DNA of 64,000 bases. It comes from Archangium violaceum (GTDB lineage: Bacteria; Myxococcota; Myxococcia; Myxococcales; Myxococcaceae). The notes below the pieces were generated by a model. It saw nothing but the letters and a program-made list of their open reading frames with translations, did no database searches and had not been told where the DNA came from. The first letter of the stretch is position 1. Each line of letters begins with the position of its first letter. Positions 19,742 through 56,455 of this stretch are shown one piece after another. The position numbers and the translations under genes are program-made. The stretch covers positions 3,622,501-3,686,500 of the forward strand of contig NZ_CP069338.1 of NCBI RefSeq assembly GCF_016859125.1, given 5' to 3'.

Positions 19742-20125
19742 ATGGGTATCATGCGCTGCGAGGACCATGGCCTGCGCGGAATCGAGCACGTCTGCGAGCA
19801 TCTTCGCCATGCGGTCGACGTGGGGTCCGAGCTCCCAGCCTTCGCGAAGTACCCGCTCTTGATGGACGGTCCCTCCCCCGAGGTCTGGCTGGTCCTCTAC
19901 TTCTGCCACGAATGTGTTGCGCGAAGGGGGCTCCCAGTTCCGGAGCGGGAGCTCAGCGAAACCGAGCAGACGCGCGAGTATCACGGCATCCTCGACGACC
20001 TCGAGGTTGTCTGTGAGCGATGCTTCAAGCGCAGGGCCTTCCCCTCGGAGGGAACCGGGCCGTCGCCCATTCTCTGCTCTCCTTTCCATGCTCCAGGGGC
20101 TTCGAAGGTCACGTCCCGGTGGTAA
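19742..20125 (+). CDS. Unknown protein with paired cysteines
   Basis: 127 residues, not recognised. Cys pairs occur at CEDHGLRGIEHVCEHL (near the start), FCHECVARRGLP and VVCERCFKRR, suggesting a structural zinc site. The start could be the ATG at 19742 or 19751. It is followed at once by another unknown gene in the same direction, so the two may form a small unit. Codon use fits the genome. No function is proposed. Confidence 0.55.
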   Translation: MGIMRCEDHGLRGIEHVCEHLRHAVDVGSELPAFAKYPLLMDGPSPEVWLVLYFCHECVARRGLPVPERELSETEQTREYHGILDDLEVVCERCFKRRAFPSEGTGPSPILCSPFHAPGASKVTSRW

Positions 20126-20150
20126 CCTTCCGGCCCATGTGAGGTGGCCA

Positions 20151-20972
20151 GTGCTCGAGTTCAAGGCGGATTGCGAGGTGGATGGGGGTCTGGTCGTTGC
20201 TGATCGGGAGACGCTGAATGCGTTGTCAGACGAAGACCTGTTCTCGATGATGGTCGCCCTCGACGAACAGGGGACGTCGGAGTTGGCGTTCGACTACCCC
20301 GGGGTTTCCTGGCAGCACGTCTATGACAGGGAAACGCTCCGCTTGAGGGAACTGTGCACGGCGGGCGGGCTTTGGTTTGCCAATATGGGCCCCGGACGTT
20401 TTTGGGGTGGGGTGGAGGTGGAGCAGGTGGGTAGCACGTCCATGCCGGATGGTCTGGCTTCGGGTGGGGGAAGTCTTCGCCTACCATCAGGCGATGTCGT
20501 TGTTGTCGAGGCGGGATATTTGTGTGCACGTAGGGCCTACGCCGTGGAGGAACCCATGGCCGAGGTTTCCGTGCGGGCAGGCCTCTACGGCGTTCGCTTC
20601 CTTCGCCTGCCTCGCCCCGAGGGGCACCAGGGGATTCGCGGCGAATGGGGGGCGAGCGGAAGACCGGCTGTTGTTGTGAGCCTTTGGCCGCGCATGGATG
20701 CAACCCCTGACCTGGCGATGGGAGCGCAGGGAAACCTTCTCAAGAAGGACGCTTCCTGGCTTTCTTCCTGGTCACGCGCTGACGACCTGGTCTGGGCCGC
20801 GCTCAAACGCGTGGAAGGCCATCGGGCGATCTTCACGATCTCGTTTCCCTCTGGACACGGGTATGCGGAAGCTCCCATGGGGGCCAGGCATCTATCGGCT
20901 GGAGATGAAGTTCTCTTGCGGCTCATCGAGAAGAGCGGAGGCCGGTGGAGTGCTGAGATCGCTGGACCATGA
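20151..20972 (+). CDS. Hypothetical protein
   Basis: 273 residues from the GTG at 20151 with GAGGTGG just upstream; the frame is open from 19914, but that part overlaps the preceding gene. No domain is recognised. It has a soluble, mixed alpha/beta composition (VLEFKADCEVDGGLVVADRETLNALSDEDLFSMM...) and no signal peptide. It begins 25 bp after the Cys-pair protein. Confidence 0.55.
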   Translation: MLEFKADCEVDGGLVVADRETLNALSDEDLFSMMVALDEQGTSELAFDYPGVSWQHVYDRETLRLRELCTAGGLWFANMGPGRFWGGVEVEQVGSTSMPDGLASGGGSLRLPSGDVVVVEAGYLCARRAYAVEEPMAEVSVRAGLYGVRFLRLPRPEGHQGIRGEWGASGRPAVVVSLWPRMDATPDLAMGAQGNLLKKDASWLSSWSRADDLVWAALKRVEGHRAIFTISFPSGHGYAEAPMGARHLSAGDEVLLRLIEKSGGRWSAEIAGP

Positions 20973-21183
20973 ACTGCCGCCCGCAGGCCCTCTTCTCCGG
21001 CATCGAGGCTGACGACATCGACGCCGACAGTACGAGCCCACGCTTGGGGCAGTGTCGGTGAGGGCCCGCGGGACTTCGGGCGTTCCACGAGGTCCGCACC
21101 TACTCCGCGTCCAGGGGGTCGTCATACTCCCTGGAGTCCCACGAGAAGTAGGTTGCGCGAGTTGCCACGGGAGGGCGGGCGCG

Positions 21184-22185
21184 TCACCCGTGCTCGCTGT
21201 CGAGGTGCTTCATCTGCTCCGGTGAGTAGCGCTCGCCGGAGATCTTCACGAGCGCATCGAGCGCCGTGAGATCGTCCTTCGACAGCGGCCGGTCCAGGGC
21301 GCCGAGCGAGTCCTCGAGCTGCATGAGGGTCTTCGCACCGACCACGGGGACGAACGCCGGCTGGCGTGCGAGCACCCACGCGACCGCGAGCTGCCCAGGC
21401 GTCATGCCGCGCTCCTGGGCGAAGCGGTGAAGGGCGGCCACGGTCTCCTCGTTCTTCTCCCGGTTCGTGCCGCTGAAGCGGGGGAGGTGGGCGCGGAAGT
21501 CCCTGGGTCCCCGCGGCTTGCTGCCGGTGAGCAGGCCTCGCGAGAAGACGCCGTAGAGTGTCGCGCTGATGCCGAGCTCCTCGAGCACGGGGAAGATCTC
21601 CGCCTCGGGGCCGCGGCTCGCGAGTGAGTATTCGATCTGCAGATCGACGATGGGGTGGACGCGGTGGGCGCGGCGGATGGTCTCGACGCCGACTTCGGAC
21701 AGCCCGATGTGGCGCACGTAGCCCGCCTTCACCAGATCCGCGATCGCGCCGATGGTGTCCTCGATGGGGACGGACGGGTCCAACCGGGCGGGGCGGTAGA
21801 TGTCGATGACGTCCACCCCCAGCCGGGTCAGGCTGTAGGCGATGAAGTTCTTCACGGCGACCGGGCGCGTGTCATTCCCGCCAAAGCTCCCATCCGGTCC
21901 TCGGAGCGCGCCGAACTTCACGGAGAGCTGCACCTGGTTCCTCCGGCCCGCGATGGCACGCCCCACGAGGAGCTCGTTGTGGCCCATTCCGTAGAAGTCA
22001 CCCGTGTCGATCAACGTGACGCCGCGATCGATCGCGGCCTGGATGGTCCGGATGCTCTCGGCGTCATCGGTCGCGCCGTACATGCCCGACATTCCCATGC
22101 AGCCAAGCCCCAGCGGGAATACCTCGGGTCCCGTGGCGCCCAGCTTCACCGTCCGCTGCGTCTTCTTCGCTTCGTGCGTGCTCAT
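21184..22185 (-). CDS. Aldo/keto reductase
   Basis: 333 residues from the ATG at 22185 with AAGGAGAG upstream. NAD(P)H-dependent oxidoreductase of the AKR (beta/alpha)8 family: GLGCMGMSGMYG, IDTGDFYGMGHNELLVGRAI (Asp and Tyr of the catalytic set) and VKFG (Lys). The usual catalytic His region reads YRPARLDPSVPIEDTIG, so the His is replaced, as in one AKR subfamily. C-terminal VVGAKTLMQLEDSLGAL is the cofactor-binding segment. It is divergent from a LysR regulator 73 bp away, which probably controls it. Confidence 0.92.
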   Translation of the reverse strand: MSTHEAKKTQRTVKLGATGPEVFPLGLGCMGMSGMYGATDDAESIRTIQAAIDRGVTLIDTGDFYGMGHNELLVGRAIAGRRNQVQLSVKFGALRGPDGSFGGNDTRPVAVKNFIAYSLTRLGVDVIDIYRPARLDPSVPIEDTIGAIADLVKAGYVRHIGLSEVGVETIRRAHRVHPIVDLQIEYSLASRGPEAEIFPVLEELGISATLYGVFSRGLLTGSKPRGPRDFRAHLPRFSGTNREKNEETVAALHRFAQERGMTPGQLAVAWVLARQPAFVPVVGAKTLMQLEDSLGALDRPLSKDDLTALDALVKISGERYSPEQMKHLDSEHG

Positions 22186-22231
22186 CGTTCGTCTCTCCTT
22201 CTGCGCAAAGACTATGGATCGACACGCTGAA

Positions 22232-22247
22232 ATCCAATGAATAGGAT
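22232..22247. promoter_or_regulatory. Inverted repeat in the aldo/keto reductase-LysR intergenic region
   Basis: ATCCAATGAATAGGAT has 4-bp arms (ATCC/GGAT) around an AT-rich centre, and it overlaps the space between divergent starts. It is a candidate LysR-box. Confidence 0.4.
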
Positions 22248-22258
22248 GTATCCGAATC

Positions 22259-23191
22259 ATGCACGGCGTCTATGAAAAGGATCTCGACCTCAACCTGCTC
22301 CGTGTCTTCGTCGTCGTGGCGGAAGCGGGCAGCGTCACGGAGGCGGCGAGTCGTCTCTATCTCACGCAGCCCGCGGTGAGCGCGGCGCTGAGGCGTCTCA
22401 CGTCGGCGGTGGGGGCGCCCCTGTTCGTCCGAGCGGGGCGCGGGCTGGCGCTCACGGCGCGCGGGCAGCGTCTGTTCGCTTCGGCCCGGCCGCACCTCCA
22501 GGCACTCGTCGAGGCGGCTGTCTCTCCAGGGACTTTCGACCCGAAGACGAGCGAGCGGACGGTGCGGCTCGGATTGTCGGACGTGAACGAGACGTGGCTC
22601 CTCCCGCCGCTCCTCCGGGTGCTCGCCGAGGAGGCTCCGCGCATGAGGCTCATCGTGATTCCGGTGCAGTTCCGCACCATCGCCGAGGCGCTGGGTTCCT
22701 CGGCGGTGGACCTCGCGGTGACGGTGGCGGACGAGTTGCCGGCCGATACGCGGCGCCTCTCGCTCTACACGGGAGGCTTCGTGTGTCTCTACGACCCCCG
22801 GCACGCCCGGCTGGGGAAGCGCCTGACGATGGAGCGCTACCTCGAGCACGAGCACGTCATCGTCTCGTACAACGCGGACCTGCGAGGCATCGTCGAGGAC
22901 ATGCTGGGCATCCAACGGCGCGTCCGGGTGTCGGTGCCGACGTTCCACAGCATCGGTGCCCTGGTGGAGGGCAGTGCCCTGCTCGCCACGATTCCCATCG
23001 TGGTCGCTCGGGAGCTCACGTCGCTGCGTCCGAACCTCCGCACAGCGCCCCTGCCGGTGCCGTTGGGCCTGGGGAGCGCGCCGATGGAGCTTCTCTGGCG
23101 GAATACGGTCGAGGACGACGAGGCCATCCGCTTCATCCGCGGCCTGGTGGTCCGCGTGGCGAAGGAGAAGACGGTGCACCTGGCTGATTGA
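22259..23191 (+). CDS. LysR-family transcriptional regulator
   Basis: 310 residues. N-terminal winged HTH (LDLNLLRVFVVVAEAGSVTEAASRLYLTQPAVSAALRRL, about residues 8-46), then a substrate-binding domain (TVRLGLSDVNETWLLPPLL...). It is divergent from the aldo/keto reductase and is followed, 7 bp after its stop, by an alpha/beta hydrolase gene that may be co-transcribed. The effector is not predictable. Confidence 0.92.
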   Translation: MHGVYEKDLDLNLLRVFVVVAEAGSVTEAASRLYLTQPAVSAALRRLTSAVGAPLFVRAGRGLALTARGQRLFASARPHLQALVEAAVSPGTFDPKTSERTVRLGLSDVNETWLLPPLLRVLAEEAPRMRLIVIPVQFRTIAEALGSSAVDLAVTVADELPADTRRLSLYTGGFVCLYDPRHARLGKRLTMERYLEHEHVIVSYNADLRGIVEDMLGIQRRVRVSVPTFHSIGALVEGSALLATIPIVVARELTSLRPNLRTAPLPVPLGLGSAPMELLWRNTVEDDEAIRFIRGLVVRVAKEKTVHLAD

Positions 23192-23198
23192 GCATGGC

Positions 23199-23816
23199 AT
23201 GGTCGTCAGCCCCATGAGCCCTCACATCCTGTTCCTTCCTGGCGCTGGAGGTGCCGCGTCCTTCTGGCATCCGCTCGGCGCGCTGCTGCCGGCGAGCTGG
23301 CGCAAGACCTATCTGAGCTGGCCGGGCCTCGGCCTCGAGCCGCATGACCCGTCGGTGCGAAGCCTCGACGATGCGGTCGCCCATGCCTCCCGCGGGTTGG
23401 AAGGCCCGAGCGTGGTCGTGGCGCAGTCGATGGGCGGCGTCGTCGCCGTGCGGCTGGCGCTCACCCATCCGGAGCGCATCAGCCATCTGGTCCTGACGGC
23501 CACCTCCGGCGGCATCGATGTCGCGAGCCTCGGCGCCAGCGATTGGCGCGGTCCCTATCGCGCGGAGTACCCGAAGGCGGCGGACTGGCTCCTGAACGAC
23601 CGGACGGACCTCTCGGCGGAGCTCCACCGGATCTCCATCCCGACGTTGCTGCTCTGGGGCGATGCGGATCCCCTCAGTCCCGTGGCGGTCGGCTGTCGTC
23701 TCGAGCAACTGCTGCCCAGGGCCCGGCTGCGGGTGCTCGCGGGTGGGGACCACATGTTCGCCCGAGAGCGCGCGGACGAGATTGTGACGTGGGTCACGGA
23801 GCATCTCCGCGCGTGA
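23199..23816 (+). CDS. Alpha/beta hydrolase
   Basis: 205 residues from the ATG at 23199 (an alternative ATG at 23214 fits the family equally well). Small serine hydrolase: LPGAGGAASFWHPLGALLP, nucleophile elbow AQSMGGVVA (S77), LLLWGDADPLSP (Asp) and GGDHMF (His) complete the triad. No signal peptide. It sits immediately behind the LysR gene. Esterase or lipase-like function cannot be narrowed further. Confidence 0.85.
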   Translation: MVVSPMSPHILFLPGAGGAASFWHPLGALLPASWRKTYLSWPGLGLEPHDPSVRSLDDAVAHASRGLEGPSVVVAQSMGGVVAVRLALTHPERISHLVLTATSGGIDVASLGASDWRGPYRAEYPKAADWLLNDRTDLSAELHRISIPTLLLWGDADPLSPVAVGCRLEQLLPRARLRVLAGGDHMFARERADEIVTWVTEHLRA

Positions 23817-23906
23817 CCGAGCCGGGCCCGGAGGCAACGACGCCGACACCCACCGGGAGGCGCCTCCAGGGACCCTCGAATCACGATTCATCCCTTGTGC
23901 ACGTCA

Positions 23907-24030
23907 GTCTTCGACGGCATCCGGGCCCATGTCGTCGCCGATCGCTCGCAGTTCTTCAAGGACCTCAGCGTGCCCTTCTTTGGTGCCAACCGGCCGGGCG
24001 CCAAGGTCTCGCAGGGCATGCGGGACGCGT
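23907..24030 (+). pseudogene. Chloroperoxidase-like alpha/beta hydrolase fragment
   Basis: [20 protein letters not shown] followed by [17 protein letters not shown] matches the cap region of non-heme chloroperoxidases/alpha-beta hydrolases ([36 protein letters not shown]). No start, nucleophile or C-terminus is present on either side, so it is a relic. The flanking 23817-23906 and 24031-24103 hold nothing recognisable. Confidence 0.65.
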
Positions 24031-24103
24031 TACCCCGCCAACGCCCACGCCCGGTTCAACCGGGCGCGGACGACCCCGCGGCTGATGTGGGCCCCTGCTC
24101 GCC

Positions 24104-25432
24104 TCAGGTCCGAGCTGTTGGCACCAGGCGAATACCCTGAGGAATGAGGAAGGAAGCCGCCGCGAAGGGAGAGACCTTCGCGCCTGCCGCGAGCGTGAGG
24201 CGGTAACGGCGGGTCACCGTCGCGATGACGAGCACCAGCGCCAGTTTCGCGAGCGAGGCGCCCATGCAGAGGCGCGGGCCACCCCCGAAGGGGAAGTACG
24301 CGAACTTGGGGAGCCGCTCGAGCGAGCCATCGAGCCAGCGCTCCGGGCGGAACGCTTCAGGGTCCACGAACCACCGCGGGTCCCGGTGGGTCACCCAGGG
24401 GCTCAGCGCCAGGCTGACGCCCGCGGCAATCCGATAGCCGCCCAGCTCTCCTTCCTGGAGGGAATCCCGGGCCGTCATCCATACAGGGGGGTAGAGCCGC
24501 AGTGACTCCTTGATGACCGCCGCCGTGTAGACCAGGCGGTCCGAATCCTCGACCGTGGCGCGCCGGCCGCCCAGCGTCTGCTCCACCTCGGCTGCCACAC
24601 GCGCATCCACCTCCGGGTGCAGCGCCATCAGGTAGAGCGTCCACGCCAGCGCGATGGCCGTCGGCTGGTGTGCGGCGAGGAGCATGATGGCCACTTCGTC
24701 GCGGGGGTACCACGGGGGGGCCAGGCATCCATCCTCCCCATCGCGAGCCTGGTGCACCAGCTCGAGGAGGTTGGACGAGCCGCGGCTCCGCTCCCGGAGT
24801 CGCTCGATGAGCCCGTAGACCGCCCGGTCGAACTGCCAGACCGACCACCTGAACCGGAGGTTCTGCGGCGTGGGGAGCCAGCGCGGTATCCGGATCGGGA
24901 GCGGCCGGAAACTCCACGCCAGGAAGGAAGTGACCCGCCGGACCTCGTTGGCGCTGAGGTCCGAACCCAGGAGGAACCGCCCGACCACCTGGGCCGCGAG
25001 GGGCGCGACGTCGCCCTCGAGCGCGCGCACCTTCCCAGGGCGCCAGGAAGCGATCATCTCCTCGGCGGCTTCGACGATCGGCTCCGCGCGGGTGTCGACG
25101 CGATCACGCTTGAACAAAGACTGGAGGAGCCTGCGCTTGTAGAGCCAATCCTTCCCGTCCGTGTGCATCAGCGCATAGTGATACGAGCCGGTCTTGGCCC
25201 AGGTTGGCTTCTGCCCGGTCTCCTTCGCGAAGCTCCGCTGGCTGTTGACGAAGACGTGCTCGATGTCGCGGGGATGGCAGAGGAGATAGTTGTCCTGGCC
25301 CAACCGAACGACATCCCCGAACTCCCGGGCGCACCGGGTCACGAACCTGAGCGGGTCGGCGTGGAAGTCCGCGACATTGGCGATGCCCCATGCACCCTCG
25401 GGGCCGGGAGGCTCTCCATGAAGCGTAGTCAT
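24104..25432 (-). CDS. Cytochrome P450
   Basis: 442 residues. Heme-thiolate motif [20 protein letters not shown] (C389), ExxR as KESLRLYP, and the PERF-type FRPERWL. The I-helix oxygen-binding motif, normally (A/G)Gx(D/E)T, reads [10 protein letters not shown]: the acid is Gln and a Pro intervenes, which is unusual. The N-terminus ([23 protein letters not shown]) is soluble and without a membrane anchor. It is preceded on the same strand by a 32-codon gene and a hairpin. No redox partner gene is adjacent. The substrate is unknown. Confidence 0.93.
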
Positions 25433-25475
25433 GCGAAAATTCCCCTCTCACCGACAGCCGGCGCTCACGCGATGA

Positions 25476-25513
25476 GAATCGGCCAGAAGCATGAGCTCGC
25501 CGCTGGCCGATTC
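25476..25513 (-). terminator. Hairpin between the 32-codon gene and the P450 gene
   Basis: GAATCGGCCAG (25476-25486) and CTGGCCGATTC (25503-25513) are perfect 11-bp complementary arms around a 16-nt loop. There is no T-tract, so it is more likely an attenuator or mRNA-stabilising stem than a full terminator. It would let the upstream short gene be made in excess over the P450. Confidence 0.6.
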
Positions 25514-25536
25514 GAGTCATGACTTCTGCCGCTGAT

Positions 25537-25635
25537 TCAGTACCCGCCGCCAGGCGTGATGGCCTGGTACTGGCGCGTCAGCTTCTTCGGATTGGACAAG
25601 CCCAGCGCCACCGCGATGTAGAAGAAAGCCTTCAT
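25537..25635 (-). CDS. 32-residue peptide gene upstream of the P450
   Basis: ATG at 25635 with AAGGAGG at 25642-25648 (7-nt spacing), one of the best ribosome binding sites in the window, and a candidate promoter at 25682-25712. The peptide starts MKAFFYIAVALGLSNPKK, with a hydrophobic stretch at residues 4-13, then a basic middle (KKLTRQYQ) and ends ITPGGGY. Aromatic residues are F4, F5, Y6, Y23 and the C-terminal Y32. No family is recognised. It could be a precursor or signalling peptide, or a leader peptide for the P450. It is too short to be found by usual gene callers. Confidence 0.6.
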   Translation of the reverse strand: MKAFFYIAVALGLSNPKKLTRQYQAITPGGGY

Positions 25636-25681
25636 GATCGATCCTCCTTGTTTGGGCTTTGAAGTTGTTCAGCCCGCCAGG

Positions 25682-25712
25682 ATGATAGCGCCAGGTCTGT
25701 CATGTCTGTCAA
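25682..25712 (-). promoter_or_regulatory. Candidate promoter of the 32-codon gene
   Basis: On the minus strand, TTGACA (25707-25712, perfect -35), a 19-bp spacer and TATCAT (25682-25687, 5/6 match to the -10). The spacer is 1-2 bp longer than ideal. The -35 falls in a 9-bp tandem repeat (TCTGTCATG then TCTGTCAAT, 25696-25713), which may be a regulator site. A transcript would have a leader of about 40 nt. Confidence 0.5.
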
Positions 25713-25864
25713 TGCCTCATTGGCTTGCGCCACGAAGACAACGAGCAAGCAAAGACAAGCCAACCGAGAGGAGGCATGAGGTCTCTCCAGATATTCGCGT
25801 CCAGACAGTGCGCCTATCGATGCAGAGCCCATGCCGTGCCAGGCACTCCCTCGTGCCGCATGAT

Positions 25865-25918
25865 TGGCACGTCAAAAGACAAGGGCTGACGCGTCAGCGG
25901 TGCTGGCTGACACGTCAG
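25865..25918. promoter_or_regulatory. Array of three TGRCRCGTCA palindromic sites
   Basis: TGGCACGTCA (25865-25874), TGACGCGTCA (25887-25896, perfect; 12 bp with flanking C/G) and TGACACGTCA (25908-25917) have centres 22 and 21 bp apart, two helical turns, so all three lie on one DNA face. This is the pattern of a cooperative operator. The nearest promoter is that of the 32-codon/P450 unit, about 150 bp away. Confidence 0.55.
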
Positions 25919-26039
25919 AGCCGCTGGCCGCGTGGGCCGAACGGCTGTTCCTGTCTGGCCACGAACGAAAAATTGCCTGCCTGATGGAGGGCATTCCGTG
26001 CCGGGTGTGGAGGCATGCGCCGGGTGTGACAGCACCCAT

Positions 26040-26132
26040 CGGGGGCGCGCCATTGTGGAGCACCTGGGGCTGCCTACGCGGCCTGCGAAGCGGGCCCTGG
26101 GGCAGGGGTCACCCCAGCAGGCGTGGTGTTGA
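26040..26132 (+). pseudogene. Possible transposase C-terminal remnant (IS91-like)
   Basis: The frame ending at 26132 reads GRAIVEHLGLPTRPAKRALG and then QGSPQQAWC-stop. It resembles the tail of IS91-type transposases (AILxHLGLPTxPxxxAPA). A weak ACAGC precedes it. Nothing else of a transposase is found nearby, so it would be a very short fossil. Confidence 0.4.
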
Positions 26133-26167
26133 GCCTGGCGCGGCCACGACCCACAACTCCCTGTTCA

Positions 26168-27190
26168 CTAGGGCCAGAAGCCCTGCCAGGTCGTGTAGAA
26201 CGAGTCGCTATCGATGACGCAGGTGTGGGGGGACTCGACGCAGCGGACGTCCGTGCTCGAGGTCGTCTTCCCGTAGGAGCCCGCGTTCAACCGGGTGGCG
26301 CCCCAATGCGTGGTCGACGCCGTCAGGAAGCTGTCCTTCGTATGGACCAGACCCCGGTAGTTCCCTCCACCCGCGGGCGTCGCCAGTCCGCTCGAGGAGA
26401 GCGTGTAGCTGGGGACCGTCTGCACGGGGGTGCGGTCCGTCGGGCCCGCCAGCATGACGACCGTGTCCACCAGGTGATCCTTGCCGATGACTGCCGCATG
26501 CCCCGCGCCCTGGGAGTGCCCCGCGACGATGAGCTTGTTCCAGACGATGCCACAGGGAATGGCCGTGTTCTTGGTTCCCGTACAGTTGGAGGGCGTGAGG
26601 TAGGCGCCCCATCCCCCGGCCGGATCCTGGCTGTCCCGCATGAACACGAGCAGCCGGATGAGGCGGGCCTCGATGCCGTCGTAGTAGCCCATATCCGTCA
26701 CGGCGGAGCCCGGCTGCACGACGCCCGTGATGAAGGTGCGGCGCGTGGGCAGGTGGCAATCCACGTTCGTGCCGCACACCTCCCGGATGTTCGGAGAGTT
26801 CCGGTGGGTAATCCCAACCACGCGATAGCCCTTGTTCACGGCGCTCGCGAAGAAGCTGGTCTGCGCGGTGGTGTACTCGTTGATGTGATAGAAATTACCG
26901 GCGCTCGAGCCCGCTCCGTGGAGCATCACGACCAGGTTGCTCTTGGTGGGGGTGTTGGGGCGCAGCGCGTAGTGGGGACGGTTCCAGGACGTCGTCCTTC
27001 CACCGAAGTTGGTGTCCGTGGGGAGCATCGCCCAGCACTTCGCGTCGGCGGGCGCCTGGCACGCGGAGAGCGCTTCCTGTTCCCGGGTGGAGAGTTCGTC
27101 TCCGGAGAACGGCACCTCATCCTCGAGAGGCCCACACGCCGCGAGGGCCAGGAGTGCACACAGTGGCAGGCTCTTCTTCAGTGGGTTCAT
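26168..27190 (-). CDS. Secreted alpha/beta hydrolase lipoprotein
   Basis: 340 residues from the ATG at 27190, which gives a lipoprotein signal (LPLCALLALAAC; Cys about residue 19). Hydrolase core: NLVVMLHGAGSSAGNF (oxyanion region) and nucleophile elbow VAGHSQGAGHA (S226). Six or more further Cys suggest disulfides, as expected outside the cytoplasm. It resembles chlorophyllase/PHB-depolymerase-like esterases, but the substrate is unknown. No operon partner is seen. Confidence 0.82.
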   Translation of the reverse strand: MNPLKKSLPLCALLALAACGPLEDEVPFSGDELSTREQEALSACQAPADAKCWAMLPTDTNFGGRTTSWNRPHYALRPNTPTKSNLVVMLHGAGSSAGNFYHINEYTTAQTSFFASAVNKGYRVVGITHRNSPNIREVCGTNVDCHLPTRRTFITGVVQPGSAVTDMGYYDGIEARLIRLLVFMRDSQDPAGGWGAYLTPSNCTGTKNTAIPCGIVWNKLIVAGHSQGAGHAAVIGKDHLVDTVVMLAGPTDRTPVQTVPSYTLSSSGLATPAGGGNYRGLVHTKDSFLTASTTHWGATRLNAGSYGKTTSSTDVRCVESPHTCVIDSDSFYTTWQGFWP

Positions 27191-27524
27191 TATTCCGTCC
27201 GTGCTGTGGTGGTAGCCGAGCTTGCTCCTGAATTCCCGGACATCCAAGCGTTCTCTGAAATGATTTTGCCTCCTTCGGCGGCGTAGGACCCCGGGATGAT
27301 GCTTTCTCGAGAGATGATATTTCTCTTGGGGCACCAGCCCTTCGCTCGAGGTGTCCCCTGCGCTGCGGTGGTCTTCCGGGAGCGAGCCCCCTCGGTCCTT
27401 GCCCGGGTCCTGAGCCCACGAGGTGGGGGTGGCGAAAGGGCACTCCGTGGGGTACGAATTCCCCCCTCGTTGAAGTGACGGCCTGACCACTCGTGCCGCG
27501 GTCGAGCGCCGGAAGGGGGGCACC
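27191..27524. other. Divergent intergenic region
   Basis: 334 bp between the hydrolase lipoprotein and the LysM gene. It holds a moderately AT-rich island (27255-27330) with the palindrome TCTCGAGA. No gene or clear promoter can be assigned. Confidence 0.4.
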
Positions 27525-28190
27525 GTGCCGAGACAGCACATCGTGCAGCAGGGGGAGTGTCTCGTGAGTATCGCGCGCCAGTACGGCCTCGCGAACTGGC
27601 GCACCCTCTACGAGCACCCGGACAACGAGACGCTGCGCCGCAATCGGCCCAACCCCAACGTGCTCTTCCCTGGCGACGTAGTCGTCGTTCCGGACCCAAA
27701 GCCGAAGACGGTCAATCGCGTCACCGGCCGTACGCATACCTTTCAGGTGACGCTGCCGCGCAAGGAGCTCCGCCTGACGTTGCGCGACGTGCGCGACAAG
27801 CCCTTCGAAAACGCTCATGTGGAACTGGAGGTGGACGGCCGCTCCTGGCCTCCACCCGAGGGCCAGGAGGCCTGGACCACGGACGGCGAAGGCTTGCTCA
27901 AGGTGCCTGTGCCGGTGGGTGCGCGGTCGGTCGTGCTCGCGACAGGCGGTTTCAAGGTGGGACTGAGGCTGTCCCACCTCAACCCCCTGCGGGACATACC
28001 GGAGGGGAACCTCAGCGGTGTACAGGCCCGGTTGCGGAACCTCGGTTATGACGGAGGCACGGGTGAGGGGCGCATGGGGCCGTCCACACGCGCGGCGCTG
28101 GCGCTCTTCCAGGCCGACCAGGGTCTCGAGGTGACTGGCAAACCCGACGATGTGACGCTCCGCAAGCTCGAGGAGCTGCACACCAGTTGA
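27525..28190 (+). CDS. LysM and peptidoglycan-binding domain protein
   Basis: 221 residues from a GTG with GGAAGGGGGG upstream. An N-terminal LysM (HIVQQGECLVSIARQYGL...LFPGDVVVVPD, about 5-57) is followed by a beta-rich middle domain (FQVTLPRKELRLTLRDVRDKPFENAHVELEVDG, a transthyretin-like module) and a C-terminal PG_binding_1 repeat (VQARLRNLGYDGG...TRAALALFQ, about 165-205). No signal peptide. This architecture is frequent beside VgrG or phage-tail-like cargo genes, but no secretion genes are in the window. It is the first gene of a five-gene unit running to 35750. Confidence 0.85.
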   Translation: MPRQHIVQQGECLVSIARQYGLANWRTLYEHPDNETLRRNRPNPNVLFPGDVVVVPDPKPKTVNRVTGRTHTFQVTLPRKELRLTLRDVRDKPFENAHVELEVDGRSWPPPEGQEAWTTDGEGLLKVPVPVGARSVVLATGGFKVGLRLSHLNPLRDIPEGNLSGVQARLRNLGYDGGTGEGRMGPSTRAALALFQADQGLEVTGKPDDVTLRKLEELHTS

Positions 28191-28216
28191 TTCAACGCAG
28201 TGAGAGGGGGAGTGCA

Positions 28217-28708
28217 GTGGATGATGTACGTGACGTGATGGTGGGGGCGCCCGGAGACACGGCCGGCAATGTGCTCGTGCTGGGTGGGATGGATGTGGTC
28301 GTCCCGCTCGAGATGGACCTCGATGACGACCCGCTCCAGGACGACGAGGTGTGGTTGCGCCGGGCCGACGGCAGTGTGGTCCAGGTGCTCTACTCGAATG
28401 ATCCGGACGTGGAGCGCAACGAAGAACAGCGGCTGTTCTTCTTCGGATTCCGCGACGTCCCCTTTGGCGTCTATACGGTGTCGGTGAAGGTGGGGGATCA
28501 ACTCTACGATGCCATTCGCGGTCTCGTGGTGTGTCGGGAGGGTGTGCTGCTCGGTGGGAAGAAGCTGGCCTCGTCCTGGACGGCACGCCAACCGCCCTCC
28601 GTGCCCCCCGCGCCTTCGGAGTCCTCGCCAACCCAACCCTCGGAGGAGCCTGCGCTTGCGCTGCTGCCGCAAGATGGCGGGGTCTATCTCGACCAGGAGG
28701 ACCTGTGA
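28217..28708 (+). CDS. Hypothetical protein of the peptidoglycan-directed cluster
   Basis: 163 residues from the GTG at 28217 (GAGAGGGGGAG upstream); an in-frame TTG at 28187 overlaps the preceding stop and is less likely. Acidic, beta-rich N-terminal two thirds (VLVLGGMDVVVPLEMDLDDDP...GVYTVSVKVGD), then a Pro/Ser-rich tail. No family recognised. Its stop overlaps the GTG of the peptidase gene (GTGA), so the two are translationally coupled; it may be a chaperone, adaptor or secreted partner. Confidence 0.7.
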   Translation: MDDVRDVMVGAPGDTAGNVLVLGGMDVVVPLEMDLDDDPLQDDEVWLRRADGSVVQVLYSNDPDVERNEEQRLFFFGFRDVPFGVYTVSVKVGDQLYDAIRGLVVCREGVLLGGKKLASSWTARQPPSVPPAPSESSPTQPSEEPALALLPQDGGVYLDQEDL

Positions 28709-30801
28709 GCCAGTCGAGTTGCTGGTCCGAGGCGTTCACGCCCAAGCGCTTCTACCTGGGTATGAAGTACGCGGTACGCGCCCTGTCTGGTGGTGAGCCA
28801 CTCACCGGGCTCTTCATGGCCTTTCGCGTGCTGCCACCGGCCGGGAGTGGCTCACCCACGGACAAGGTGGTGGAGTTGGCGTACGCGGCCCCCGACGAGT
28901 GGGCGGAGGAGCGCTCTGCCCGCGAACGCGCGGAGAAGGAGTTCAGCCTCGCGTTCGTGGACCCCGACGGCTTCCTGCAGCCTGTCACCAACGTCAACCC
29001 CTGGTACGAAATCCACGCAGCGTTGCAGGCGAAGGCCGAGGCACAAGCCCGCCACGAGAAGCAATGGAACGCCAAGAAGCAGAACCGGGGCGTGCCGCCG
29101 CCTCCCCTCCCTCCGGTCAACCGCAATCCCGACAGCGTCAAGCTGTCGTTGGGCACCCGGATGCAGGCGTGTCTCATCCGTCATCCCAGCGCCCACCTCG
29201 CGCGGGCCCTGTGCGATTGGCTCAGCGGTGGTGAGGACCCGCACGAGTACGGCTTCGCTCAGTGGGGAGAACCGGAGACGCTGCTGCGTACTCTCGAGAC
29301 GAAGCAGGACACCGCCGTCGATGCCCTGAACCTCGACGGGCTGACCAGCGAGCCCGCCGACTACTTCCCACCCGGCCCCAAGCGCTATGGCGGTTGGACG
29401 CTCTACGTCGACATGCCGCACGCCTCCCTTCCCTCGGTACAGGAGGCGGTGGGTCGTCTGAAGGACGACCTCGGTCGGCTGCGCTACCCGGTGGGCGGAA
29501 ACTCGCCCTACGGAGGCTGGAAGTCGAAAGGCGGTGCCAGGATCGCATCAGCCAATCGCGGTACTTTCGACCTGGTCTGTGCCTCCGCCGTCACGGCTTT
29601 CCAGTACGACGCGTCCGGCCCATGGGCCTTCAAGCTCGCGGACAAGGCGCTCGCCTATGCCTTCGCGCTCGAACCCTCGCGCAGCGGCGATCGCAAGAAG
29701 CCCAAGAACAGCTGGGCATACCTCATTGGTTCCACGGTCAAGCGCGCCCCAGTGCTGGACGAACGGGGATACGAGCAAGGGGTGGTGGACGTGGCTACGT
29801 CGACGGCCATCCGAACGTGGCTGGAGGAGGGCCTGCGCAAGCCCGGCGTGGTGCTTATCGAACTTCCCGCAACGGATGAAAAGGCTAGCGGCGCACGCTG
29901 GGTTGACTGGGCCCGGCCCGAACTCGCGTTCGCCTTTGAGCTGTGGCGCGAGTTCTCGCAGTCCTTGGGTTGCGAGTACGGCCTGTCCTTCACCCACGTG
30001 TTCCGCAACGCCGAGGCAGCCGGTGGAGTAGGCCGTGCCGAGTGCTCCATCCACAAGACTGGCAATGCCGTCGACCTTGCTGTCAAGGGCACACTCGTCG
30101 GTGGCAACGACAACGTGGTCGACTTCTCGCTGCCGGCGGCCCACTTCCCCATCCGCTTCGAGGCGAGTTGGAACTGGGATGCCCGCTCTGCCATCGGTAG
30201 GCTCGAACGCGAGCTCGACGGGGCTAGAAAGAAACTCGAGACTGCGAGGACTGGCGCGAGCAAGGCCCTGCGCTCGCGGATCACCAACACCCGGCAGGAC
30301 ATCGCGGATGCGTCCGCGAAGCAAGTGGAGGGAGCCGGGCGCAAGGTGAAGGTCCCTCGTTTCAAGGACGACCTCCGGCCAAGGCGAACCCAGGTCTGGC
30401 TGGACGCAGCCGGCCTCCAGTCGCACCTGGAGATGTGCGAGACCCGGCTTGCCCACCTCGAGCGAATCTCCACCACGTTGGAAAAAGGGGCACTGGGAGC
30501 AGCGGTACCAGGGGAGCCGGAGCTACCCGAGGTGGTCAAAGTCCGGGCGGCGGAGGCTCGGCTGAAAGTAGCGAAAGAGCAGTTTGACCGCGCTCAGCAG
30601 ACGGACACTCCGGTCCGCAGTGCCTACCGCATCAGCTGGCGGCTTTACGGTCACTCCATCTTCAACCCGTTCCGCTATCTGGCTGACCCGGCACAGCTTG
30701 CCCAGGAGGTGGAGAATCGACTCGGCGCTCCACCCGTGGAACTGCGGGCAGACCCAACCATCTTGTGGAAGATCGAGGAGAGATTCCGGGATCTTCTGTA
30801 G
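28705..30801 (+). pseudogene. M15 (VanY-like) peptidase, N-terminal half, split by an IS
   Basis: GTG start overlapping the previous stop. 695 native residues are followed by three IS-encoded codons and a stop. A PG-binding-like segment (LYVDMPHASLPSVQEAVGRL ... AVTAFQ, about 235-295) precedes the M15 zinc motif SxHxxGxAxD, seen as S448-I-H450-K-T-G453-N-A455-V-D457. A coiled coil (about 495-550) and a helical region follow. The C-terminal zinc motif is on the other side of the element (32475-34110). Removing the IS and one target repeat joins the halves in frame as 1239 residues. The half product lacks one zinc ligand and should be inactive. It would have cleaved peptidoglycan stem peptides. 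Confidence 0.88.
30781..30788. repeat. Target-site duplication, left copy
   Basis: AGATTCCG, repeated exactly at 32467-32474. An 8-bp duplication is typical of ISL3-family insertions. Confidence 0.85.
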
Positions 30802-30812: not shown

Positions 30813-30869
30813 GCGACAGGATGGACGGAGGGTCTCCGGTGAGAGACAGGAGAGGGGCAGTGCGGAGAG

Positions 30870-32185
30870 GTGGCTGTCACTCTCGCAAGAGCCCTGGTCG
30901 CGGAGTTGCAGTGCGTGCCGCCCCTGCGAGTGCTGGCGGGGAGGCGGGGAGTGGCGGGGCCGAGTGTGGGGGAGGTGATGGGGCGCGTGCTGCGCATCCA
31001 GGGGATGAGCGTGCGCGGGGTGCAGATGCGGCCCGGGGGACTGGTGGTGCAGGTGCGCCCCCGCCAGCGCAAGCCGCGCTGTGGAGTGTGCGGCCGGCCC
31101 GCCCCAGGCTACGACACGAAACCTGGACGACTGTGGCGGCACCTGGCGCTGGGAGAAACCATCTTCTGGCTGCGGTACGCCCCGCGCCGGGTGCGCTGCC
31201 GGGAGCATGGAGTGAGGGTGGAGCGGGTGCCCTGGGCGGCGCACGGCTCGAGCTTCACGCACGCCTTCGAGGAGCTGGTGGCCTGGCAGGCGCAACGTCT
31301 GGACAAGTCGTCCATCTGCCGGTTGCTGGGCATCAACTGGCGCACGGTGGGCACCATCATCGAGCGACTGGTGGAGGAGCGCCTGTCGCCTGGGCGCCTG
31401 GAGGGGCTGCAAGTCATTGGGGTGGACGAGCTGGGCTGGCGCGCCGGGCACCAGTACGTGAGTCTGGTGGTGGACCACCTGCGCTCGCGAGTCGTCTGGG
31501 TGGCGGAGGGAAGAGCGAAGAGACGCTCAACGGCTTCTTCGACGAGCTGGGAGAGGAGAGGACGAAGGAGTTGACGCACGCGACGATGGACCTGTCGGCG
31601 GCCTTCAGCAAGGCGGTGGGCAACCGGGCCCCACACGTGCGCAAGGTGTTCGACCGCTTCCACGTGCAGAAGCTGGCGAACGAAGCGCTGGACACGGTGC
31701 GCCGGCAGCAGGTGCGGGAGCAGGCGGGGAGCCAGGAGGGCAAGGCGCTCAAGCACAGCCGCTGGGCGCTGCTGAAGAATCCGTGGAACCTGACGGTGCG
31801 CCAGGGAGAGAAGCTCAGCGAGTTGAAGAAGACGAACCAGACGCTCTACCGGGCCTATCTGCTCAAGGAGAGCCTGGCACGGGGCATGGACTACGTGCAG
31901 CCCAAGCGGGCCTCGGAGCACCTGGACAAGTGGTGTCAGTGGGCCAGCCACTCCAGGCTCGCCCCCTTCGCGAAGCTGGCGAAGACAGTCCAGCGGCACA
32001 AGGACGGCATTCTCGCCTATGTCGAGACGGGGCTGAGCAACGGAGTGGTGGAGGGAATCAACAACAAGATTCGAGCCCTCATCCGTCGCGCCTATGGCTT
32101 CCGCAATCCCAAGGCATTCAGGGCGATGATACTGCTGTGCTGCGGAGGCATGGAGTTCACTCCGCCCCTGCCAGTAGCGGCGTAG
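30870..32185 (+). pseudogene. ISL3-family transposase, frameshifted
   Basis: The N-terminal part (GTG at 30870) has the ISL3 zinc-finger/HTH region (CGVCGRPAPGYDTK...VRCREHG) and the first catalytic Asp (GVDELGWRAGHQY). Near 31508-31516 the reading frame changes by -1 (VVWVAEG, then KSEETLNGFF). The remainder has ATMDLSAAFSKAV (second Asp) and the Glu region GLSNGVVEGINNKIRALIRRAYGFRN to the stop at 32185. ISL3 transposases are normally one frame, so this is either an inactivating shift, a sequencing error or, less likely, programmed frameshifting. Confidence 0.88.
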
Positions 32186-53493: not shown

Positions 53494-54429
53494 ATGGGCA
53501 ACAAGACATCGAAAACGAAACCCGAGGTTGCCATTTCAGCAACGACGCCAGACGACCTGTGGGACCTGCGTGCCTTCTGTCTGGTCGTGGACCACGGCTC
53601 GATCACCGCCGCGGCGAAGCAGCTGGGTGAGACCAAGGGCTCCGTGAGCCGAAGGCTCTCCCGCTTGGAGTCGGCCCTGGGTGTTCCCCTCGTTCGTCGC
53701 AGCCCCCGGCTCGTGCGGCCCACGGAGGAGGGGGTCCTGTACCGGCAGCGTGTTGGACGTGCGCTCGAGCTGATCGAGGACGCAACGGATGCGCTCAAGG
53801 AAGCACAGGGACACCCGCGCGGGCGGCTCCGTGTCACCGCTCCGCCGGACTTCGCCCATACGGTGCTCGCTCCGGTGCTCGCGCGGTTCTGTGAGGCCCA
53901 CCGGGACATCTCGCTGGAACTGCTCCTGACCGACCGGGAGCTCGATTTCGATGCGAACCAGCTGGACATCGCTCTTCGCGTGGCCTCGTCCCTTCGAGAC
54001 TCCTCGCTGGTCGCGCTTCGGCTGCTCGATGCGCAGATGGGCTTCGTCGCCTCACCGGCGTACCTCGAGCGAGAAGGCCGTCCGCGCCGCCTGGCGGAGC
54101 TCCCGGCGCATCGCGTCCTGACGATGCGTCGCGAGAGCGGGCCGAGCGCCGTTCGCCTCACGCCGAGTGTCGTGGTGCAGGATGGCGCGTTCCTCCGCTC
54201 CCTGGCGTTGGAGGGGGTGGGGATCGCCATCCTGCCCCTGGCCCTGGTCGAAGCGGATCTCTCGCAAGGGCGGCTGGTGCGGCTGTTGTCCGATCAGGGC
54301 AGTCCGATCAGGATCTCCTTGTACCTGCTGCATCCGGCCACTCCGTTGCTCCCCGCCAGGGTCCGCGCGTTCCGCGACTTCATGGCCCACGCGCTCCAGA
54401 AGCAGGACCGTGGGCCATGGGGCTCCTAG
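53494..54429 (+). CDS. LysR-family transcriptional regulator
   Basis: 311 residues from the ATG at 53494; an upstream in-frame ATG overlaps the dioxygenase gene. HTH: LWDLRAFCLVVDHGSITAAA...KGSVSRRLSRLESALGVPL, then a CrgA-type effector domain (GRLRVTAPPDFAHTVLAPVL). Likely regulates the divergent dioxygenase. Its stop overlaps the stop of the convergent P450 gene. Confidence 0.92.
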   Translation: MGNKTSKTKPEVAISATTPDDLWDLRAFCLVVDHGSITAAAKQLGETKGSVSRRLSRLESALGVPLVRRSPRLVRPTEEGVLYRQRVGRALELIEDATDALKEAQGHPRGRLRVTAPPDFAHTVLAPVLARFCEAHRDISLELLLTDRELDFDANQLDIALRVASSLRDSSLVALRLLDAQMGFVASPAYLEREGRPRRLAELPAHRVLTMRRESGPSAVRLTPSVVVQDGAFLRSLALEGVGIAILPLALVEADLSQGRLVRLLSDQGSPIRISLYLLHPATPLLPARVRAFRDFMAHALQKQDRGPWGS

Positions 54430-55841
54430 AACAGGACGGGAATCCGGTTGAAGCCTCGCATGCTGGCGACGCTGCCCCACTTCATCTCCTCGGCGGGGAC
54501 GGCCAGCCGCAGCTTCGGGAAGCGCTGGAAGAGGAGCTCGAAGGCGATCTGTGCCTCGAGGCGGGCCAGCGGCGCCCCGATGCAGACGTGGATGCCCTTG
54601 CCGAAGGCGATGTTGCGGTGGGCGTCGGGCCGGGTGATGTCGAACACGTCCGGATTGGCGAAGCGCGCCGGGTCCCGATTGGCCGAGGCGAGACCCAACG
54701 ACAGGTTCTCGCCCTTGGGGATGTGCGTCCCTCCCAGCTCGAGGTCCGCCTGGGCGATGCGGGGCGTGCTGATGTAGTCGACCGGTCCCCAGTAGCGCAG
54801 CGTCTCCTCGACGAGCCCCTTGGCCAGGCCAGCGGGGTTCGCCATGAAGAGGGCGTGCTGCTCGGGGTGGGTGAGCAGCGCGACGACGCCGTTGCCAATC
54901 AGGTTGACGGTCGTCAGGTGCCCGGCGAAGAACAGGATGAACACCATCGACACCATCTCCTGGTGGCTGAGGGTGTCGCCGTCCTCCTGGACGTGGACCA
55001 TCTGGCTGATCATGTCCTCGGCCGGCTCACGCCGCTTCCGCTCGAACAGACCTTCCAGATACTGAGAGAACGCCCGCAGGCTGCCCCTCACCTTCTGATC
55101 CGCCATGGCCTCCTGTCGGTCGGTCTTCAGGAGCATCTCCGCCCATCCATGGACCTGCTCGCGATCCTCCATCGGGATGCCTAGCATGTCGCTGATGACC
55201 GTGACGGGCAGCGGATACGCGAAGGACTCGACGAAGTCCATCCGGCGCTCCGACACGGCCTCACCGCGCTCGGCCGCCTTGCGCTCGGCGGTGTCGAGCA
55301 GGTCATTGACGAGCTTCTGGATGCGCGGCCGGAGCATCTCCATGGCGCGAGCGGTGAAGTTGGGTTGGACCAGCTTGCGCAGCCGCGTGTGGTCGGGCGG
55401 GTCGAGCATCAGGATGCTGTACGCGACGGGCCGGAACTCCTCCGGCATGGACGACTCCACCCGCGCGCGCTGCTCCGGCGTCATCGCCGAGCGGAAGTCG
55501 GACGAGAGCCGGTCATCGAGCAGCGCGGCCACCGTCTCGTCGTACCGGGTCACGAAGAGCCTGTCGCGGCCAGGTACCTTGCCAGAGGCGCGAGCCTGTG
55601 AGCCCACCGGGTGAGCTCCGTCCGCGAGGCCGCGGCCGAAGGGGCAGCGCACCACGGGCGCCGTGTCCCGCAGCTCGGCATAGATGGCGTGGGCCCTGGC
55701 CATGAACTCGGGGCTCTCCCTGTCCAGGAGCACGGAGTCCACGGCCGGGGCCTCCCGGAGGGCCTTCATGGGGCAGCTGCCACCCGGCTCCGGTGCCGCC
55801 GTCACGGGTTCCTTCTGTGCTTCCACTCGGTTCGTCGTCAT
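54426..55841 (-). CDS. Cytochrome P450
   Basis: 471 residues from the ATG at 55841 (GGAGGACGC upstream). CYP107-like bacterial class: DPPDHTRLRKLVQPNFT, ExxR as EETLRYWGP, heme motif NIAFGKGIHVCIGAPLARLEA with C420. The I-helix reads LFFAGHLTTV, with Leu where Glu/Asp is usual before TT. It follows a MarR gene by 20 bp and is presumably in its operon. No ferredoxin gene is nearby; substrate unknown. Confidence 0.94.
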   Translation of the reverse strand: MTTNRVEAQKEPVTAAPEPGGSCPMKALREAPAVDSVLLDRESPEFMARAHAIYAELRDTAPVVRCPFGRGLADGAHPVGSQARASGKVPGRDRLFVTRYDETVAALLDDRLSSDFRSAMTPEQRARVESSMPEEFRPVAYSILMLDPPDHTRLRKLVQPNFTARAMEMLRPRIQKLVNDLLDTAERKAAERGEAVSERRMDFVESFAYPLPVTVISDMLGIPMEDREQVHGWAEMLLKTDRQEAMADQKVRGSLRAFSQYLEGLFERKRREPAEDMISQMVHVQEDGDTLSHQEMVSMVFILFFAGHLTTVNLIGNGVVALLTHPEQHALFMANPAGLAKGLVEETLRYWGPVDYISTPRIAQADLELGGTHIPKGENLSLGLASANRDPARFANPDVFDITRPDAHRNIAFGKGIHVCIGAPLARLEAQIAFELLFQRFPKLRLAVPAEEMKWGSVASMRGFNRIPVLF

Positions 55842-55861
55842 TGCGTCCTCCGTCCTTCGTG

Positions 55862-56455
55862 TCACTTCCCGCCGCTCTTCGCGGGGGGCTCACGTCGTTG
55901 CGCCGTCTTGGCGCGTTTGGCTCGCGGCACCGCGGGGCTCCGCTCGTCGGGGGGCGGGTCCCTCGTGTCTTCCTCGTCCTCGTCACACTCCAGGGACGTG
56001 GGCGTGCGGTTCTCCAGCGCGATCAGCGCTCGCTCCACGAGGTCCAGCGCACGGCCCAGCTCCTTCAGCTCCGTGGGGGAGGCGCTCGCGAATTGAGCGG
56101 CCAGGTCGTTGGCCAGCGCCTGTTGGACCCGCTGTCCCACCGTCAGTCCGGCCTCGGTCAGCACCATGCGGAGCCGCCGCCGGTCATCCGGATCTGCCTC
56201 GCGGCGCACGTAGCCGTGTCGCTCGAGGCGATCGAGCAGTCCGGTGATGACGGCCGGAGTGACCCGTAGCCGCCGCGCCAGATGCCTGGGCGAGGAGACT
56301 CCCTCGCGGATGGCGTAGAGCACGGTGAGCTGGCGCAGGCTCAGCTCTCCACCCAGCTGGTTCGCCTGCACGCTCGCCACGGCCCATCGATTGAGGCGGG
56401 GGATGAGCCGCAGCACTCGCAGCGCATGGTCGAAGGATGGGTTGCTCCTGGTCAT
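55862..56455 (-). CDS. MarR-family transcriptional regulator
   Basis: 197 residues. Winged HTH with LSLRQLTVLYAIREGVSSPRHLARRLRVTPAVITGLLDRLERHGYVRREADPDDRR, the classical MarR signature. The C-terminal about 45 residues are acidic then basic and unlike the family core. Palindromes upstream (56494-56534) suggest autoregulation, with the P450 gene in the same operon. Confidence 0.93.
   Translation of the reverse strand: MTRSNPSFDHALRVLRLIPRLNRWAVASVQANQLGGELSLRQLTVLYAIREGVSSPRHLARRLRVTPAVITGLLDRLERHGYVRREADPDDRRRLRMVLTEAGLTVGQRVQQALANDLAAQFASASPTELKELGRALDLVERALIALENRTPTSLECDEDEEDTRDPPPDERSPAVPRAKRAKTAQRREPPAKSGGK

Follow-up and report, generated by a model that had tools for sequence, protein, structure and literature searches.

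The 64,000-nucleotide stretch of the Archangium violaceum genome analysed here (contig NZ_CP069338.1, positions 3,622,501 to 3,686,500 of the forward strand), hereafter referred to as the window, contains on its minus strand a 32-codon gene directly followed by the gene of a cytochrome P450 (P450). As judged by sequence comparison, the two very probably constitute a minimal operon of the cittilin type for a ribosomally synthesized and post-translationally modified peptide (RiPP), with the peptide as the precursor and the P450 as its modifying enzyme. Very small operons suffice to encode P450-linked RiPPs, whose ring types are of interest as scaffolds; the present case is a natural pair that differs from the cittilin plan in both the core of the peptide and the catalytic I-helix of the enzyme, and with it one can ask if enzymes of this clade are able to form large rings or to act in the absence of the normal proton relay.

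Conservation of the peptide–P450 pair

The precursor gene (MKAFFYIAVALGLSNPKKLTRQYQAITPGGGY, stop codon included) occupies positions 25537–25635 of the minus strand, its 32 codons running from the ATG at 25635 to the end of the frame at 25537. It is preceded by the Shine–Dalgarno sequence AAGGAGG (25643–25649), located seven bases ahead of the ATG, and by a promoter-like TTGACA-19-TATCAT (25682–25712; TTGACA at 25707–25712 and TATCAT at 25682–25687), both on the minus strand. The N-terminal half of the peptide is hydrophobic and there is no Trp in its sequence. The P450 (24104–25432, minus strand, 442 residues) starts 104 bases past the stop codon of the precursor, on the same strand, and belongs to the P450 superfamily according to its Pfam match (PF00067, 4e-60) as well as its ExxR and haem-Cys motifs. 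Between the two genes lies a perfect stem of 11 base pairs (bp; 25476–25513, minus strand, arms 25476–25486 and 25503–25513). The promoter-like pair, ribosome-binding site, 32-codon frame and stem had been put together as one expression unit in an earlier, sequence-only reading of the window, and all of them are present.

Concerning conservation, a full-length peptide was found in three of the 96 genomes of the family, i.e. in that of the window itself, in another of the same genus (G002, 100% identity) and in one of another genus (G034, 91% identity). All three copies directly precede the P450, which in G002 and G034 is 92% and 77% identical, respectively, to the P450 of the window. The window's own genome holds, in addition to the one full-length copy, one weak partial match (expectation value, E, of 1.76); the matches in the other 22 genomes having any (E up to 1) are weak and partial, with E of at least 0.18, and nearly all of them lie inside long frames. 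A plasmid search with the P450 returned 66 records, all below 60% identity, the best listed reaching 41%. At the level of codons, the window and G002 differ by five synonymous changes and no amino-acid change, and the chance of all five being synonymous would be about 0.0008 if sites had changed at random (23.3 synonymous and 72.7 other sites). The comparison of the window with G034 gives six synonymous and three amino-acid changes (F4L, I7V and Q22P), these being the only replacements, all ahead of the invariant core.

Judged from its conservation before the P450 and from this pattern of substitutions, the 32-codon frame is a genuine gene under purifying selection. It becomes conspicuous by comparison alone, and such precursors are thus easily overlooked. 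The sequence-only reading had proposed a precursor of a P450-modified peptide and had named conserved copies next to P450 genes and selection on the 32 codons as ways to check it; both have been found, and the proposal gains support from the conserved pair together with the P450 tree described below.

Placement in the cittilin clade

The ten P450s next in score in the 96 genomes are 44–47% identical to the P450 of the window. All ten are preceded, 194–250 bases ahead of the start of the P450 match, by a 27-codon frame with a Shine–Dalgarno-like site (e.g. MKKALYSLAVLMRFARADKLSAPYIYY), the encoded peptides having an end of the type YIYY, which we take to be the cittilin core. The length and setting of these peptides fit the cittilin precursor, the ten P450s being taken as CitB from precursor length and core and not from deposited CitA and CitB sequences. 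Cittilin itself is described as a bridged tetrapeptide made by a P450 from a 27-residue precursor (PMC8708641). When 34 P450s were placed in a maximum-likelihood tree, the window-type enzymes (three) and the cittilin-type ones (ten) came together in one clade with a support of 100/99, the supports of these two groups themselves being 100/100 and 100/99. A KL[ST] peptide occurs within 700 bases upstream of all 13 P450s of the clade and of none of the 21 outside it, the one outside match to the pattern (L063) being the end of a long frame. The earlier objection that the N-terminus of the P450 does not look like the known RiPP class is thus weakened, and the P450 and peptide of the window appear, with good confidence, to represent a cittilin-type locus that forms a separate branch.

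A full-length cittilin-type precursor is also present at the locus L093 (G065), where the P450 matches over residues 8–73 only, although the available stretch is long enough; this P450 is probably a broken copy and is not among the ten mentioned above.

With regard to the peptides themselves, the global alignment reveals MK, AV and KL, as well as the Tyr that opens the core, as common to the window-type and cittilin-type sequences. In a shuffle test against five cittilin-type precursors, based on the mean score of the global alignment, three of 3000 shuffles reached the window peptide and none of 3000 reached the G034 peptide, and among 1167 frames of 24–45 residues in the three loci, the three peptides occupy ranks 1–3. 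The leader carries at residues 17–20 (25576–25587, minus strand) the motif KKLT, where the cittilin-type precursors have DKLS. A profile prepared from both kinds of peptide, which finds both by construction, was run on 195 genomes of the phylum; its 14 matches over 26 or all 27 positions consist of 11 of the cittilin kind, the one in G065 among them, and three of the window kind, with no third kind seen, six further matches being partial (E 0.012–0.044).

Among the known systems, the cittilins of Myxococcus xanthus (precursor CitA, P450 CitB) share with the window a short precursor gene immediately ahead of the gene for a P450 from the same clade, the bacterial family, a similar leader with the KL[ST] motif, the place of the first core Tyr and an intergenic hairpin, the last feature being seen in both cittilin-type spacers that were folded. 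They differ in the core (YIYY versus YQAITPGGGY in the window), in the length of the precursor (27 versus 32 residues), in the P450s, with the identity of 44–47% given above, and in the I-helix, which is SGHETT in the cittilin-type enzymes (SGHGTT in one of the ten) and AAHQPT in the window. Myxobacterial cittilins are also reported to have a methyltransferase with the precursor and P450 (PMC8708641); no methyltransferase domain was found among the 14 neighbouring frames scanned, these being a part of the frames in the three loci, five of them without any Pfam match. The minimal precursor–P450 operon is common to the window and the biarylitides including myxarylin (pentapeptide BytA, P450 BytO), but the precursor of the latter has five residues, with aromatic ones at positions 3 and 5 and a core such as Tyr-x-His, so that the 32-residue peptide falls outside that class. 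Atropopeptides of the tryptorubin type likewise have a two-gene cluster and are described with a Lys-Leu-containing leader motif (KSLK) at residues 17–20 (PMC11450843); they have Trp at core position 2, whereas the peptide of the window, with KKLT instead of KSLK and without any Trp, does not belong to them.

Core, I-helix and proposed reaction

The putative core YQAITPGGGY covers residues 23–32 (25540–25569, minus strand), its start being set by aligning Tyr23 to the leading Tyr of YIYY in the cittilin-type precursors. All ten residues are identical in the three genomes, the last one, Tyr32, is the sole other aromatic residue, and an aromatic tetrapeptide of the YIYY kind is absent. On the side of the enzyme, the I-helix motif is AAHQPT in all three window-type P450s (residues 253–258 in the window), whereas it is [AS]GHETT in 30 of the 31 other aligned P450s; the remaining one, of the cittilin kind (L033, G005), has SGHGTT, i.e. 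Gly at the position of the acid, with the YIYY end kept. In the window P450, Gln256-Pro257 stands in place of the acid–alcohol pair Glu-Thr, and the window-type P450s are, by this alignment, without the usual oxygen-activating residues. Since the haem loop and the ExxR motif are intact in all three, the enzyme does not, by these signs, appear to be dead.

A structure model based on 32 of the 34 P450s, with a mean predicted local distance difference test (pLDDT) of 77.8 and a predicted template modelling score (pTM) of 0.84, places residues 242–271 in one helix holding AAHQPT; an earlier model from five sequences was useless (mean pLDDT 31.7), and the solved structures closest to the model, CYP184A1 first, belong to general P450s and are uninformative on function. 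In the biarylitide enzyme P450Blt, the I-helix positions 231, 234 and 238 have been named as key to specificity (PMC10929621). In the CYP152 peroxygenases (OleT, P450 BS-beta), Arg245-Pro246 is reported to replace the acid–alcohol pair (PMC5377825), which resembles the window P450 in that Pro takes the place of the alcohol and the acid is missing from its position. This likeness concerns the motif, in which the P450 of the window does not match the CYP152 pattern, only the Pro agreeing between Arg-Pro and Gln256-Pro257; the CYP152 members are fatty-acid enzymes. A nucleotide pattern written for the HQPT motif of the I-helix proved much too unspecific to be informative, matching in 128 of the 195 genomes and yielding many matches for the reversed control.

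In the mechanism proposed, the 32-residue peptide would be made from its own promoter and strong ribosome-binding site, and residues 1–22, comprising the hydrophobic N-terminal part and the KKLT anchor, would act as a leader recognised by the P450 encoded next, which would oxidise the core at residues 23–32. The most likely reaction would be an oxidative link from Tyr23, which sits at the place of the first Tyr of cittilin, to Tyr32, the one further aromatic residue that the core contains. The product would be a ring of ten residues, compared with three or four known in biarylitides and cittilins, and such a ring is put forward as a possibility with considerable doubt attached. A peptidase of the host, encoded at another site, would then remove the leader. 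The role of the peptide as substrate, the bond made and this course of processing are what we infer from the comparisons. The sequence-only reading had counted F4, F5 and Y6, together with Y23 and the terminal Tyr, as aromatic residues for cross-linking; the latter two indeed belong to the core and are invariant, whereas the former three lie in the leader, and F4 is replaced by Leu in G034.

The same reading had held the absence of an adjacent protease against a RiPP precursor. This point is weakened, as the biarylitides characterised to date are, according to the myxarylin authors, also without a dedicated protease in the cluster, yet several biarylitide-like clusters adjoin a prolyl oligopeptidase gene (PMC12951456). 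Removal of the myxarylin leader has been ascribed to prolyl oligopeptidase. The residue preceding the core Tyr is Pro in G034 and the cittilin-type precursors and Gln in the window and G002; with Gln instead of Pro, the window peptide would need another cut site or another peptidase.

It is plausible, if still tentative, that this branch has lost the acid–alcohol pair (Glu-Thr to Gln-Pro) along with the near aromatic partner and now performs a different oxidation, either the ten-residue Tyr23–Tyr32 macrocyclisation or a carboxylate-helped oxidation of the C-terminal Tyr, possibly driven by peroxide. If true, either reaction would be of a new kind for this RiPP group. The core YQAITPGGGY was not named in the titles and abstract starts searched, and three fragments of the peptide did not occur in the literature text searched, most subscription journals being outside the coverage in both cases.

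Several observations weigh against a cittilin-type precursor closed between its two Tyr residues. The core has no aromatic residue two or three positions past Tyr23, and P450s of related groups are reported to form links between an aromatic and an aliphatic side chain (PMC13192836), which leaves room for a small ring made by the window P450. The window peptide is not listed by a local profile built solely from cittilin-type precursors, whereas the peptide frames of G002 and G034 are the best of their own loci in that profile, yet with E of 1.1 and 0.15, respectively; given this weak result, the homology of the peptides relies mainly on the P450 clade, the position and the motif, plus the global alignment. 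The three window-type P450s are situated on a long branch (1.01), which permits a change of function. Only three copies were found, and two scans of a collection of 84,980 genomes, where records close to the window may be lacking and absence is therefore not demonstrated, added none; these scans used two short patterns each from the P450 alignment (79 pattern matches) and the peptide alignment (88), with no relative found. The promoter-like pair, which has a counterpart TTGACA-19-TAGGAT in G034, is missing from G002, where about 135 bases are absent, and a promoter scan allowing the consensus with a spacing of 16–18 only found no promoter-like site in 25300–26000, which speaks against the promoter observed.

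Instead of closing a ring, the P450 could oxidise one residue without any cross-link, by hydroxylation or by loss of the C-terminal carboxyl of Tyr32, the carboxylate of the peptide replacing the missing acid as the fatty acid does in CYP152. This would agree with the lack of a close aromatic pair in the core and with Gln-Pro at the acid–alcohol position of all three P450s, similar to Arg-Pro in CYP152 (PMC5377825). Computations on an engineered OleT–reductase fusion are described in which the second proton comes from the carboxylic acid of the substrate (PMC10988616). Both core Tyr residues are, on the other hand, invariant, as a link between them would demand, and the single-residue oxidation is considered somewhat unlikely. 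Nor is any clade member known to carry it out. The P450 could also vary the three- to four-residue ring of cittilin and join Tyr23 to one of the non-aromatic residues close by (Ala25, Ile26 or Thr27). Such a small ring would be in line with the reported ability of P450BytO to modify peptides that have a non-aromatic residue at position 3 or 5 (PMC12951456), but it is unlikely, leaving the invariant far end GGGY unexplained, though three sequences are few.

It could further be asked whether the peptide is a substrate at all. Its hydrophobic N-terminal half would suit a small membrane or signal protein, acting alone or as a subunit of the P450; the sister clade's cittilin-type precursors, however, have a similar N-terminal half with the KL[ST] motif, and the 27-residue precursor of cittilin is reported to be modified by its P450 (PMC8708641), which makes such a role quite improbable. 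A translated regulatory leader controlling the P450 by attenuation through the hairpin would be in keeping with the stem between the frames, which G002 preserves by a compensatory change from T-A to C-G. It is nevertheless highly improbable, the peptide having no run of one regulatory amino acid and its residues being conserved to the last one even in G034, whose 19-base spacer lacks such a hairpin.

Intergenic stem, upstream palindromes and neighbouring genes

The folding of the whole spacer is mildly better than that of shuffles, with z of −1.53 and −1.95 and 17 and 8, respectively, of 200 shuffles folding as well or better. The hairpin had been called attenuator-like; it does exist between the genes, but, not being present in all copies, it more likely sets the ratio of precursor to enzyme. 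It would fit a partial stop or an mRNA-stabilising element holding the precursor above the enzyme.

Upstream of the precursor there are two operator-like palindromes (TGACNNGTCA; 25887–25896 and 25908–25917), 21 bp apart and the sole two in the window. Palindromes precede the peptide in each locus, three at 20 bp in G002 and two at 20 bp in G034. According to shuffles, two copies are not exceptional for the window (31 of 100), in contrast to three in the 18 kb of G002 (1 of 200) and two in those of G034 (3 of 200), the phasing being likewise unusual. Paired palindromes at a spacing of two helical turns occur in six of the seven genomes examined, with 3–11 matches each (overlapping pairs counted apart) and none in G004, and the reversed pattern gave none. 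Several of 16 further paired sites that were retrieved (all others of G000, G002, G006 and G034, two of those of G003 and none of those of G005) lie near or before frames with secretion or lipoprotein signals, as read by eye from the N-termini. For the window, the palindromes are possibly a terminator, with terminator-like sites reported at 25918–25886 and 25898–25885; the two to three phased copies in all three loci would better fit a protein-binding site, for which they are regarded as candidates. The exact palindrome strings matched only papers on plants and a human gene, as far as titles and abstract starts tell.

The flanks were compared using frames of at least 70 residues, between the window and the 18-kb stretches around the G002 and G034 copies as well as between those two, and no common gene was found except the P450 (and frames overlapping the pair). 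The palindromes, precursor and P450 thus seem to have been kept together as one unit. The upstream stretch 25821–25994 is also similar between the window and G002 (71%). The same comparison gave a weak match to a second P450-like frame of the window (54426–55865, minus strand), about 26% identical to the window-type P450s. In G034, the frame after the P450 on the opposite strand (L029, 11790–13232, minus strand) encodes, by Pfam, a TsiV-type (type VI immunity) protein. A tRNA scan of 20000–30000 found none. Farther away in the window, transposase-like frames occupy two overlapping reading frames at 30821–32185 on the plus strand (30870–31574 and the end of 30821–32185), resembling, by eye, one broken insertion-sequence gene.
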